Assembly (NCBI GenBank): GCA_033549065.1
Contig: JAWSUE010000004.1
Span: forward strand, 124,001-188,000
Direction: 5' to 3'
Source: Bacillota bacterium
GTDB lineage: Bacteria > Bacillota > Dethiobacteria > DTU022
Length of the DNA: 64,000 bases
Within the stretch, counting starts at the first letter, position 1. Each line of letters opens with the position of its first letter. The position numbers were made by a program, and so were the translations under genes. Positions 7,826 through 13,409 of the stretch are shown in pieces. Under the pieces are notes generated by a model. It was not told where the DNA came from, ran no database searches, and saw only the letters and a program-made list of their open reading frames with translations.

Positions 7826-8704
7826 ATGGCAAAATTTAATGGTCAATCCGAAACAGGAAAAATAGATTCCATCCTGATGAAGAAACCTGAAACTGCATGG
7901 AAGAGTCAGGAAAATATCAAGAAACAGTGGCAAAAACTGCACTATCCAGCCGAACCGAACTACGAAAAGGTTTTGAATGAATACAGCCAGTTTACTGCTA
8001 TCATTGAAAAGTACGTCCCTGAAGTACATTATCTTCCTGAAAATGATCATACCAGCCTGGACTCGATTTATACCCACGACCCGGTAATAATCACCAAAGG
8101 CGGGGCTATTCTATGCAATATGGGCAAATATGAACGCAAGCCGGAAGCTGAAGCAGCCGGGAAATATCTTGAAAAGATCGGCATCCCGATAATCGGTAAG
8201 ATTGAAGCACCCGGAAAAATTGAGGGCGGAGATATAGTATGGTTTGATGATGATACAGTAGCTGTAGGCCTCGGTTATCGCACAAACAGCGCCGGAGTTT
8301 CCCAACTGCGTGATTTGACAAAAGACATGGTTAAAGAAGTAATAGAAGTCCCGCTCCCCCACGGAAATGGTCCTGCAGAATGCCTGCATCTAATGTCAAT
8401 GATCAGCCCGGTCGATCGTGATCTTGCTGTAATATATTCACCGCTGATGGTTGTACCTTTCCGGGATCTTTTAATTGAAAAAGGATTTCGATTTGTGGAA
8501 GTTCCCGACAGTGAATATGACACTTTTGGCTGCAACGTTCTGGCCCTGGCGCCACGGATATGTGTCATGATTGCCGGAAACCCGAAAACCAAAGCCGGCC
8601 TGGAAAGAGAAGGGGTTACAGTCTTTGAATATCCTGGGGAAGACGTTTCAATAAAGGGTGGCGGCGGACCAACCTGCCTGACCAGACCACTGTTCCGTTT
8701 ATAG
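7826..8704 (+). CDS. Dimethylarginine dimethylaminohydrolase-like (guanidine-modifying superfamily)
   Basis: DDAH hydrolyses N-omega-methylated arginines to citrulline plus methyl- or dimethylamine. The 292-residue protein shows the superfamily catalytic set: Glu133 in KIEGGDIVW, His188 in ECLHLM and nucleophile Cys284 in GGGGPTCLTRP, plus a substrate-site Asp in YTHDPV. It lines up with bacterial DDAH along its whole length, including a segment resembling EAPG-x-x-E-x-GDI. Related families (arginine deiminase, amidinotransferase) are possible, so the substrate is not proven. The start ATG follows GGAGG, and the gene ends in a true TAG stop followed about 20 bp later by a terminator. It is one of two plus-strand genes in the window. 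The dimethylamine methyltransferase gene mtbB lies close by, which gives DDAH activity a metabolic sense. Confidence 0.8.
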   Translation: MAKFNGQSETGKIDSILMKKPETAWKSQENIKKQWQKLHYPAEPNYEKVLNEYSQFTAIIEKYVPEVHYLPENDHTSLDSIYTHDPVIITKGGAILCNMGKYERKPEAEAAGKYLEKIGIPIIGKIEAPGKIEGGDIVWFDDDTVAVGLGYRTNSAGVSQLRDLTKDMVKEVIEVPLPHGNGPAECLHLMSMISPVDRDLAVIYSPLMVVPFRDLLIEKGFRFVEVPDSEYDTFGCNVLALAPRICVMIAGNPKTKAGLEREGVTVFEYPGEDVSIKGGGGPTCLTRPLFRL

Positions 8705-9571: not shown

Positions 9572-11038
9572 TTAAATGCCCAGTTCTTCTTCTCTTCTGC
9601 GAATAATCGAGAGAAGTTCCTTATGCACTTTATCAGGTAGCGGCTCGGGCTTATGGGTCTCGAGAATTTCTCTTGCTTTTTCATCACAGGATGCGGTCAA
9701 GTCTTTTGAACCGCGTTCAGCCCAGAACTGGCGCATCCGTCGATCAATCAGTTTTGGCTCTGAAAGCTTTCTCATGTGCTTGTATGTATGATCCTCGGCT
9801 AAGAAGTGTCCCCGTGCACCTACACTTTTGATCACATCCACAGCCAGGGTTTCATCATTTACCGGAATTCCTTCCAGGACTTTTCTCGTCATGGCAATGA
9901 TCTCATTGTCCATAACCAGCTGCCCGAAGCTCATGGTCAGCCCCATCTCCAACATCCCCCCGCCGTAGATCATATTGGCCCCTGCCAATGCCGGCAGCAG
10001 GGTAGTCAGAGTTTTTTCATGCCCTGATTGCGCATCTGAAATCTTGCTGTCTCCCTAAGTACCCGCTACATAACTGGGAAGGCGGTACATCTGAGCCAGC
10101 TTGGCAACAGCAGCGCTGATTAAACCAAGTTCAGGGCAACCAACTGTAGCTGTTGTCAGCTTCAGATCAATCATTGAAGTGGAACTGCCGTACATCACAG
10201 GTGCCCCTCTGCGCGTAAGCTGGGCCAGAACAATCCCGCCCAGTACCTCTGCATTGTGAGTAACCAGGGTACCGGCCAGGGTTACCGGCGACGTTGCTCC
10301 CGCCAAAGCCATCGATAAAATATTCTGGGGAAGATTCGCCCGGGCATATTCGATGATCGGGTCAGCACAACCTTCAGAAATAGTCAGCGGACTTTGTGGA
10401 CATGTACAACCCGAGACAATCGGTCTGTCTTTTAAGTTCTCCATTCCCCCGGCCACCGCAGCTGCCATTTCAATTAGCAGTTGGGCTGAACGTTTATCGT
10501 GACAGGGCTGCGGAACATGCTTGGTGGTGTTCGATACCGTAACCTCGTAATTATGAAGACTTTCCATTTCAGGATGAACATCCCTGGGAGCAACAGTATT
10601 TTCAAGCATATCGTATTGATCAAGAGCATCGACTAGCCTGGCCACATTTCCCTTGTCGGCCTTTGTTGACTGCCGGTATTCACCGGTATAGGGATCTATA
10701 ACCATAACCCCTTCTCCGAAAGGACAAAAATTTACCCTTCCGCTCTCCAAAACAATGTCGTTTTTTGGATCCCGTCCTGCCAGAAAAACCTTTTTCGGTG
10801 CGGAAGTAATCGCGTCTTCGACGATATGAACCGGGATTTTTACTGTTTTACTGTCCCTGTCTACTATGCAGCCTCCATTTTCATAAATATCAATCGCATC
10901 GTTACTCTGAACGTATAAGCCGGTATACTCCAAAACTTCAAGAGTCGCATCATGGATCATTTCCAGATCTTCTCTGCTGAAGAGGCTAAGACTACAACCG
11001 ATAAAGGTGTTCCTGCCAGCTATCGGATTTCTTTTCAA
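9572..11038 (-). CDS. mttB: Trimethylamine methyltransferase with in-frame amber (pyrrolysine) codon
   Basis: MttB transfers a methyl group from trimethylamine to a corrinoid protein. Two open stretches, 11038-10058 and 10054-9572, are in one frame and separated only by TAG at 10055-10057. Reading TAG as pyrrolysine gives 488 residues with Pyl at about residue 328, close to the length and Pyl position of the Methanosarcina enzyme (about 495 and 334). The local sequence LPSYVAGT-Pyl-GDSKISDAQ matches what I recall of archaeal MttB. Downstream residues (EKTLTTLLPALAGAN, ETLAVDVI, AERGSKDL) continue the family without loss. The start is taken as TTG six bases after AGGTG; a GTG at 11047 is the alternative. 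mtbB lies just upstream. The non-Pyl homologue MtgB lacks this codon. No corrinoid gene is nearby. Confidence 0.95.
10055..10057 (-). other. In-frame TAG read as pyrrolysine in mttB
   Basis: This amber codon sits between VAGT and GDSK in mttB, at the residue occupied by catalytic pyrrolysine in archaeal MttB. Both flanks are conserved and in frame, so a nonsense mutation is unlikely. Decoding needs tRNA-Pyl and PylS, which are not in this window. Confidence 0.93.
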
Positions 11039-11059
11039 TAGTGTCACCTGCCTTACAAA

Positions 11060-12451
11060 TTATTTTAATCCTGTTGCTTTTTTAAAGCGCTCAACTGAGT
11101 TAATATTAATACCAAGCACTCTGGCAATCCGGATCTTTGCCCCTATACCTTTTGCTGATCCCGGTTCGGGCATTGAATAACCTAATCCCAATAATTTTCT
11201 TATATCACGCATTACAGAGCAATCGCTTAACTCAAAAGAGGTAACTCCCAATCTATCGGCTACATACTTCTTTGCGGAGTCGAGCTTCATTCCTTTCGAC
11301 AGCTGCATTCTTAGCACCAGATCTCCGGCCGTTCGAATGCCGCCCATTCCGACTGCGACTTCCTGTGTAGCTTCATTACCAAAAGGATCACCTGAACCTA
11401 CCTATAAACCATCTGCTTTACCAATCTCGATCAGCGCCTTGGCTGCTCTTGAAACGGTATCTACGGGGGGAACCGGTGTCATCGGTGTAGCGCCGACGCC
11501 CATACCAACATTAGCATGAACAGGTATGTTGGCAGCTTCCGTGCAGGCTTTCATAAAGGTTACGGTCCTGGCCAGGTTCCAGGGAAAAGTTTTATTACTA
11601 TTGGTATTTATAACAGGGCCAAATATACTTACCCCTGCCTTCTCGGCAAGTTCAACCTGTCGGTGTGGGTACAGACCGGCAACTCTTATACCTCCAAATT
11701 CTAACTTGCCATGCATGCCCAAAATAAATTCCCCGGCCATTCCCATCTCTATACCCAGGTGAGGATATTTTTCCTTTATAGCCCTGATAGCCAGGAGTGC
11801 AGCCAGTACATCGGCATCTCCTGAAGCACCGCAGGTATCAAAATTCATTCCGTCCGCGCCTGCTTCATACATACCGCCCGCAATATAAACCATGTCTTTG
11901 ACTGCATGCTCAATCGCTTCTTCCTGGGCATATCTGGCCTCTTCAATTTTCCCCTGCGGCAGAAGTTCCGACCAATTTTCCACCGGACCGTCCGGTTTGG
12001 TATAGAGTCCCAGGTTGGGCATTGCCCCGTAAAGAACCGGCATTACTGTATTGAGTTGGATATTTTCCATAACCTTTACTTCGTCATGCAGAATTGCTTT
12101 TACTGATTTATAGCTGTAGTCAATATTGCCCAGGTCTAGGGAGTCAGCACACAGCACCTTCTCATGAACCTGAACAGCAGTTGCCCTGTCCATAGAAATA
12201 TCCGACTGGTAATTGATCTTGAATGCTCCCGAGTCTGAAGAGGTTACCACTTCTTTGCCTTTCAATACGCTGCAGACATTTACCGGTGAGGTAATAATTT
12301 CAAAAAGATAATCAATTTCATCACCTGATAAATCTGCAATTTTCCCCCGTTCAGCAGCATCTGCGGTACCGGTCTTAAGGTCAGTGTAAATTTCATCTGA
12401 AGTAAGATATACTCCCGAACCATCACCCATTCTTGTAAAGTGTTTTTCCAA
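11060..12451 (-). CDS. mtbB: Dimethylamine methyltransferase with in-frame amber (pyrrolysine) codon
   Basis: MtbB transfers a methyl group from dimethylamine to its corrinoid protein. The frame is open from 12451 to 11405 and from 11401 to 11060, split by TAG at 11402-11404. With the TAG read as pyrrolysine the product has 463 residues, with Pyl at about 350; archaeal MtbB has about 467 residues with Pyl near 356. Recognisable stretches are RMGDGSGVYLT, LYGAMPNLGLYTKPDGP, ADGMNFDTCGASGD, MAGEFILGMHG and SKTFPWNLARTVTF, then KADGL-Pyl-VGSGDPFGN and MGGIRTAGDLVLRMQ. The start is TTG seven bases after GGGAGG; an ATG at 12466 lies in the Shine-Dalgarno sequence itself. It is preceded by a transporter gene and followed by mttB after 21 bp. 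Confidence 0.95.
11402..11404 (-). other. In-frame TAG read as pyrrolysine in mtbB
   Basis: The amber codon lies between KADGL and VGSGDP, the conserved pyrrolysine position of dimethylamine methyltransferases. The frame is maintained on both sides and the C-terminal 113 residues are still typical of the family. Finding it independently in two adjacent genes makes mutation an unlikely explanation. Confidence 0.93.
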
Positions 12452-12473
12452 GTTAACACCTCCCATCTATTCT

Positions 12474-13409
12474 TTATTCAGGGGTACCGGAAATTGATTG
12501 CATTCGATCACCCTTAATCCCCAGGTAGATAAAATAAATGGTATAAAATGCTGCTACAACCGCGCCGGGGAATGATGCGATCTCGTTAAATAGAGCTAAA
12601 GCCAGGGTTGATGAAAAAGCAGCTGTTTTTATTGTCGCCAGCAGAATATAGCTCTGTCTCTCCGGGTGAGCGATAGAGAGTTTTTTACCCATATAATCGA
12701 CAAAGTAAGCCAGAAAAAAAGTACTCATAAAAGCGATAATAATTACCCGGATGAGTAGATTTGGCTCAGATAGAAATAAAGCACGATTTAAACCGACTAC
12801 AGAAAATATAACCACGAAAAAACACCAATTGATGATCGTACCTTTATACTTTTCTATGTAAGAATTAATTTTTAAAAAGCATAGTACCCTTGATAGGACG
12901 AGCGGGATTAGGATATACTGCGTCATGGCATATACCAGTCTGCTGGTGGGGACAGAACTTCCTCCGATAAAAACAGAAACCATGATAGGAGTGATGATGA
13001 TGGATAAGAAAAATGCACCATATAAACCAACCAAAGTCAGTCTTGTATCACCTTTCAGAATATAGGTGAATGGTATAACCACGACGCCCGGTGGTCCGGC
13101 AGCAACCAAAACATAGCCTGCCCAAAGGTCCGGTTCAGGTATGAGCCACCAGGCTAACAGCAATATCAGGGATCCCAAAACAAAATAGTTAAAGAAAACT
13201 CCGGCTACAATCGGCTTTATAGTTTTGGAGACGGGTATGAAGTCTGCAATACTTATTTGAGTGATCGATACTGTTAGGGCAATGAGAAGTGCAGGAAATG
13301 TTGCAGAACTTGTATATTTCGCCAGATCACTGAATATTAAACCCCCGGCAAAAGCAGACACCATGATAAAAGTGCGATTGCGCAAAAGAGAGATTACTCG
13401 GTTGGTCAT
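12474..13409 (-). CDS. BASS-family (bile acid:sodium symporter-like) transporter
   Basis: This 311-residue integral membrane protein has about nine or ten hydrophobic segments and a BASS-like core, AAGPPGVVVIPFTYILKGD, in the region where the family has its crossover helices. The BASS superfamily moves organic anions or other solutes with sodium. It is the first gene of the unit transporter-mtbB-mttB, ending 22 bp before mtbB, so a role in bringing in a methylated amine or a related substrate is an attractive inference. The Shine-Dalgarno sequence (GAAGG, 13 bases before ATG) is weak and the exact start is uncertain. Confidence 0.75.
   Translation of the reverse strand: MTNRVISLLRNRTFIMVSAFAGGLIFSDLAKYTSSATFPALLIALTVSITQISIADFIPVSKTIKPIVAGVFFNYFVLGSLILLLAWWLIPEPDLWAGYVLVAAGPPGVVVIPFTYILKGDTRLTLVGLYGAFFLSIIITPIMVSVFIGGSSVPTSRLVYAMTQYILIPLVLSRVLCFLKINSYIEKYKGTIINWCFFVVIFSVVGLNRALFLSEPNLLIRVIIIAFMSTFFLAYFVDYMGKKLSIAHPERQSYILLATIKTAAFSSTLALALFNEIASFPGAVVAAFYTIYFIYLGIKGDRMQSISGTPE

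Follow-up and report, generated by a model that had tools for sequence, protein, structure and literature searches.

Among the closest described systems, the trimethylamine methyltransferase MttB of Methanosarcina barkeri has pyrrolysine (Pyl) as residue 334, and Gly110 and Tyr364 are fully conserved among Pyl-type MttBs (PMC9842639). Within the Bacillota, Candidatus Formimonas warabiya DCMF has a complete pylTScBCDSn set and Pyl methyltransferases, and its Pyl and selenocysteine (Sec) genes were manually corrected (PMC6778437). Pyl/Sec users are also described in Bilophila and marine deltaproteobacteria (PMC7593587, PMC8318568), the latter source citing Prat et al. 2012 on transcriptional feedback control of code expansion in Firmicutes.

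Here we analyse a 64,000-nucleotide stretch of DNA from a Bacillota bacterium (the window) together with its genome (2.39 Mb, 61 contigs, 97.8% complete). The window contains an adjacent mtbB-mttB pair with internal TAGs, and we consider it about 95% probable that these are decoded as Pyl via a pyl cluster in the same genome, for methylamine demethylation.

Results

The mttB gene and its internal TAG

9572..11047, minus strand: mttB, trimethylamine:corrinoid methyltransferase, with one in-frame TAG (PF06253 E 2.8e-103; TIGR02369 729.5 bits; 7xcm/7xcl E about 1e-124)
10055..10057, minus strand: mttB TAG codon, predicted pyrrolysine, at the position of Pyl334 in the M. barkeri enzyme

The initial annotation had placed an amber-split mttB at 9572-11038 with the strand unstated; the gene is found there, but on the minus strand, and translation of the interval on the plus strand gives noise. 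In the minus-strand frame from 11047 to 9572 the sole internal stop is the TAG at codon 331 (10057-10055, CTA on the plus strand), in the context ...LPSYVAGT-TAG-GDSKISDAQ..., and the terminal stop is TAA. An SD-like AGGTGA lies five bases ahead of a TTG at 11038, which is therefore the likely start; were it used, Pyl would be residue 328.

When joined across the TAG, the product scores 729.5 bits against the NCBIfam equivalog TIGR02369 ('trimeth_pyl'), above its curated cut-off of 525. Alignment to Methanosarcina MttB, as had been proposed, was carried out with phmmer against the PDB and places the TAG on modified residue 334 (X in 7xcl) of the M. barkeri enzyme, with VAGS/VAGT preceding the Pyl position and gap-free alignment beyond it. 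The single internal stop thus coincides with the archaeal Pyl site, as the initial annotation had claimed. The active-site residues Tyr364, Gly110 and Met249 of M. barkeri MttB correspond to Y361, G111 and M246 of the window protein, which hence has both residues conserved among Pyl-type MttBs, and the sequence criteria tested support assignment of the gene as a Pyl-type mttB.

If the TAG were instead a true terminator, two polypeptides of 330 and about 138 residues would result, which may assemble, and in-frame starts from which the second could arise do exist downstream, e.g. a TTG at 9988. The coincidence of the TAG with the catalytic Pyl, the gap-free conservation across it with no conserved start directly after, and the presence of Pyl machinery in the genome render such an arrangement exceedingly improbable.

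The neighbouring mtbB and local gene order

11060..12466, minus strand: mtbB, dimethylamine:corrinoid methyltransferase, with one in-frame TAG (PF09505 E 3e-187; TIGR02368 492.7 bits, cut-off 369.1)
11402..11404, minus strand: mtbB TAG codon, codon 355, predicted pyrrolysine (KADGL-TAG-VGSGDP)
12474..13409, minus strand: SBF-family permease, directly upstream of mtbB (PF01758 E 4.9e-10)

The mtbB gene lies directly upstream of mttB on the same strand, with 12 bases between them, and likely starts at the TTG at 12451, behind GGAGGTG. Its in-frame TAG was absent from the initial annotation, which anticipated that annotation pipelines would report two broken genes; splitting is indeed to be expected, but since the adjacent mtbB is also TAG-split, standard annotation would show four broken pieces. 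The SBF-family permease, separated from mtbB by 7 bases, is a possible operon member with the pair. Assignment of the upstream TAG gene as MtaB (methanol methyltransferase) was considered and rejected, PF12176 having no match in the genome and the protein being MtbB.

Conservation and selection across relatives

In a search of 84,980 species genomes, 22 relatives of mttB were recovered; most carry names of uncultured Bacillota, among them soda-lake 'Syntrophomonadaceae', and Candidatus Formimonas warabiya is also represented. The TAG is kept at the same codon, with no other internal stop, in all 20 of the Pyl-type relatives that span the site; outside this count are L102, which ends before the site, and L101 (33% identical), which is without an internal stop and from its sequence looks like a non-Pyl family member. 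Comparison of mttB with its nine closest relatives gave dN values of 0.06-0.17 downstream of the TAG, with dS from 1.4 to saturation, and dN/dS of about 0.03-0.08 where computable; upstream, the two pairs with unsaturated dS gave about 0.02. Given that synonymous sites are near saturation, conservation of the TAG in 20/20 relatives is not due to chance. The earlier claim of in-frame, conserved sequence on either side of the TAG therefore holds, with one frame, a gap-free alignment and purifying selection on both sides.

These data also bear on the possibility that the TAG is a nonsense mutation, or an error of sequencing, in what is otherwise an ordinary MttB, so that the gene is dead or the TAG an artefact. 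Such an origin is favoured by the frequent use of TAG as a genuine stop in this genome; however, purifying selection on both sides, in particular downstream, combined with recurrence of the same codon in 20/20 relatives from other assemblies, already refutes it. Single in-frame TAGs in the neighbouring mtbB and in three other genes, and the completeness of the pyl cluster, point the same way, and we regard a pseudogene or error as having a negligible chance of being correct.

Decoding of the TAG as Pyl is, by contrast, consistent with the wider distribution of the system: among 98 genomes of the class, exactly one TAG is present in 36/36 MtbB matches spanning the site, and PylSn occurs in 16 of the 17 genomes with MtbB versus 4 of the 81 without. 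In two of the mttB relatives (L094 and L096) the Pyl-type mttB also terminates in TAG, which would require a single gene to have one TAG read as Pyl and another as stop.

The pyl cluster and other methylamine genes in the genome

The initial annotation had proposed a search for pylT, pylSc/pylSn and pylBCD, the absence of which would have told against Pyl. All are present on another contig (contig 5, C5), in the order pylT-pylSc-pylB-pylC-pylD-pylSn at ~59.2-63.7 kb, and all the Pyl proteins of this complete cluster score above curated NCBIfam cut-offs. PylSc and PylSn are encoded by separate genes, which is the bacterial arrangement. The tRNA-Pyl has a CTA anticodon, a cloverleaf fold and a five-base D loop and is without the usual T-loop motif, the latter two features being known traits of tRNA-Pyl.

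Five methyltransferase genes with one TAG each were detected, i.e. mttB on C4 and C3, and mtbB on C4, C2 and C8. The C2 and C8 mtbB genes adjoin corrinoid protein genes, of which the genome has seven scoring >120 bits to TIGR02370, none of them beside the window mttB. No corrinoid protein gene is next to the window pair, the candidates all being on other contigs, namely C2, C5, C8, C12, C14 and C18, and the corrinoid partner must consequently come from elsewhere in the genome. There are two RACo-type activators, and mtmB was not found in the 97.8% complete genome. An MttB-family gene at C12:13717-15201 (L016:3754-5220) begins immediately after the TAA of a nucleotidase-like gene in the same frame, which gives it the look of one fused frame interrupted by a stop. 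It was rejected as a recoded gene, because the apparent internal TAA is the terminator of the gene before it, with an ATG directly behind; the gene is ordinary.

Extent of TAG decoding and selenocysteine

Stop usage was assessed with a simple hexamer gene caller on 1.54 Mb sampled of the 2.39 Mb genome. Stops in the 1417 predicted genes are TAA (56.1%), TGA (24.6%) and TAG (274 genes, 19.3%), and in-frame coding extension past TAG showed no excess over TAA or TGA in the sampled sequence. Genome-wide reassignment of TAG to sense would have TAG as a rare or absent terminator, which at 19.3% of stops it is not; these observations together indicate that TAG is still a working terminator in this genome. 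Because TAG ends ~19% of genes, its decoding as Pyl has to contend with termination.

As in other Pyl bacteria, TAG decoding appears from the sequence to be confined to known Pyl enzymes: screening of the 1.54 Mb for coding sequence past TAG gave only mttB and mtbB as clear read-through candidates. When read as translations, the leading TAG cases for further Pyl proteins look like ordinary gene-next-to-gene arrangements; one such rejected candidate, at C5:34603, resembles, by eye, a flavodoxin/FMN-reductase-type gene with an acetyltransferase-type gene behind it.

The following features relate to decoding of UGA:

C12:41220-41313 (L076:1220-1313), plus strand: tRNA-Sec(UCA)
C14:31026-32897: SelB, above cut-off
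C4:83073-83327, minus strand: in-frame TGA, MsrA-like GLG-U-FWGP, by eye from the translation
C5:145630-145875, plus strand: in-frame TGA, thioredoxin-like ADW-U-PAC joined to a CcdA-like membrane part, by eye
C5:32364-32612, minus strand: in-frame TGA, AhpD-like GCTY-U motif, by eye

The combination of tRNA-Sec, SelB and in-frame TGAs at plausible Sec sites makes it probable that UGA is also decoded, as Sec, and that the Pyl and Sec expansions coexist.

PYLIS matches

9958..10057, minus strand: Rfam PYLIS_3 (RF02510) match from the mttB TAG (82.9 bits, gathering 38)
11305..11404, minus strand: Rfam PYLIS_2 (RF02509) match from the mtbB TAG (49.1 bits, gathering 36)

That these matches start at the respective TAGs, and that the mttB stretch folds somewhat better than shuffled sequences (z -2.07), would fit a downstream RNA structure acting as an essential signal on which decoding is strictly dependent. 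However, both 100-base stretches are themselves conserved coding sequence, an overlap that makes the PYLIS_3 match weak evidence for an RNA element, the mtbB stretch folds about as its shuffles do (z -0.66), and there is little covariation, with compensatory change in 2 of 24 predicted pairs in the mttB alignment. In E. coli, PYLIS has been reported to be dispensable, although it may increase yield, and the same work reports no common structure for mttB (PMC3639795). Strict dependence on PYLIS is thus very unlikely; beyond the Rfam matches a proven RNA element is unsupported, and we claim no functional element.

A DDAH-like gene near the pair

7826-8704, plus strand: DDAH/arginine-deiminase-like protein (closest structural match 3rhy, a DDAH, E 5.5e-15)

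DDAH enzymes can release dimethylamine, which is the MtbB substrate. The window hydrolase might therefore free dimethylamine from methylated arginine and feed MtbB, which, if true, would link protein-derived methylarginine to Pyl-dependent one-carbon metabolism. The order mttB-MBL-DDAH is retained in the relatives L082, L083 and L088, but 11 genomes of the class that have no mtbB match carry DDAH-like orthologues too, and we consider a role of this gene in the methylamine system unlikely.

Discussion

What the sequence itself shows is the set of genes with their exact TAG positions, a complete pyl cluster, selection to either side of the TAG, and the presence of corrinoid proteins and of RACo-type activators; together these point to Pyl-dependent methylamine demethylation. 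The decoding, substrates, acceptor and regulation proposed draw on knowledge of the families concerned. Pyl would be made from lysine by PylB, PylC and PylD, and the split synthetase PylSc plus PylSn would charge tRNA-Pyl(CUA), whose insertion of Pyl at TAG would compete with termination. On the model of the archaeal enzymes, the Pyl imine of MttB may bind trimethylamine and position a methyl for transfer to a corrinoid protein, with MtbB catalysing the same reaction on the dimethylamine left from trimethylamine. The methyl would then pass to tetrahydrofolate and one-carbon metabolism, tetrahydrofolate being the probable final acceptor by analogy with acetogenic bacteria (PMC6778437).

With these results, the bacteria in which UAG is predicted to be read as Pyl for anaerobic methylamine use come to include an uncultured lineage of the Bacillota, which probably also decodes UGA as Sec. 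The results further illustrate how the Pyl trait would be hidden by standard gene calling, which would break up both mtbB and mttB. The system is already known from other bacteria, and the case makes no open question newly testable; the novelty lies in one more uncultured member, probably related to Dethiobacter.

With respect to M. barkeri MttB (PDB 7XCL/7XCM), the window protein aligns over near its full length, with the TAG at the same residue and equivalents of Tyr364, Gly110 and Met249. In contrast with the archaeal system, the host is bacterial, no MttC gene is adjacent, and tetrahydrofolate probably takes the place of coenzyme M as methyl acceptor. Candidatus Formimonas warabiya DCMF is likewise a member of the Bacillota, and its mttB (L090), at 68% identity, has the TAG at the same codon, but the organism has 23 Pyl methyltransferases, whereas 5 were detected here and mtmB was not. 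Bilophila and the marine deltaproteobacterial Pyl/Sec users share an in-frame TAG in mttB, a split PylS and Sec machinery (PMC7593587, PMC8318568), but belong to a different phylum; Bilophila is without mtbB, whereas in the window mtbB and mttB are adjacent.

A further likeness is to soda-lake 'Syntrophomonadaceae' and Bacillota MAGs (L081-L088), whose MttBs are 86-91% identical and in which the TAG is kept and the mtbB-mttB order is the same, although L081, L084 and L086 have an extra non-Pyl MttB-family gene upstream, unlike the window. Among the closest named MAGs, several are CSSed16 'Syntrophomonadaceae', presumably the Cock Soda Lake set. Since such soda-lake MAGs are related to Dethiobacter (PMC6146748), the lineage described here is probably Dethiobacter-related as well.
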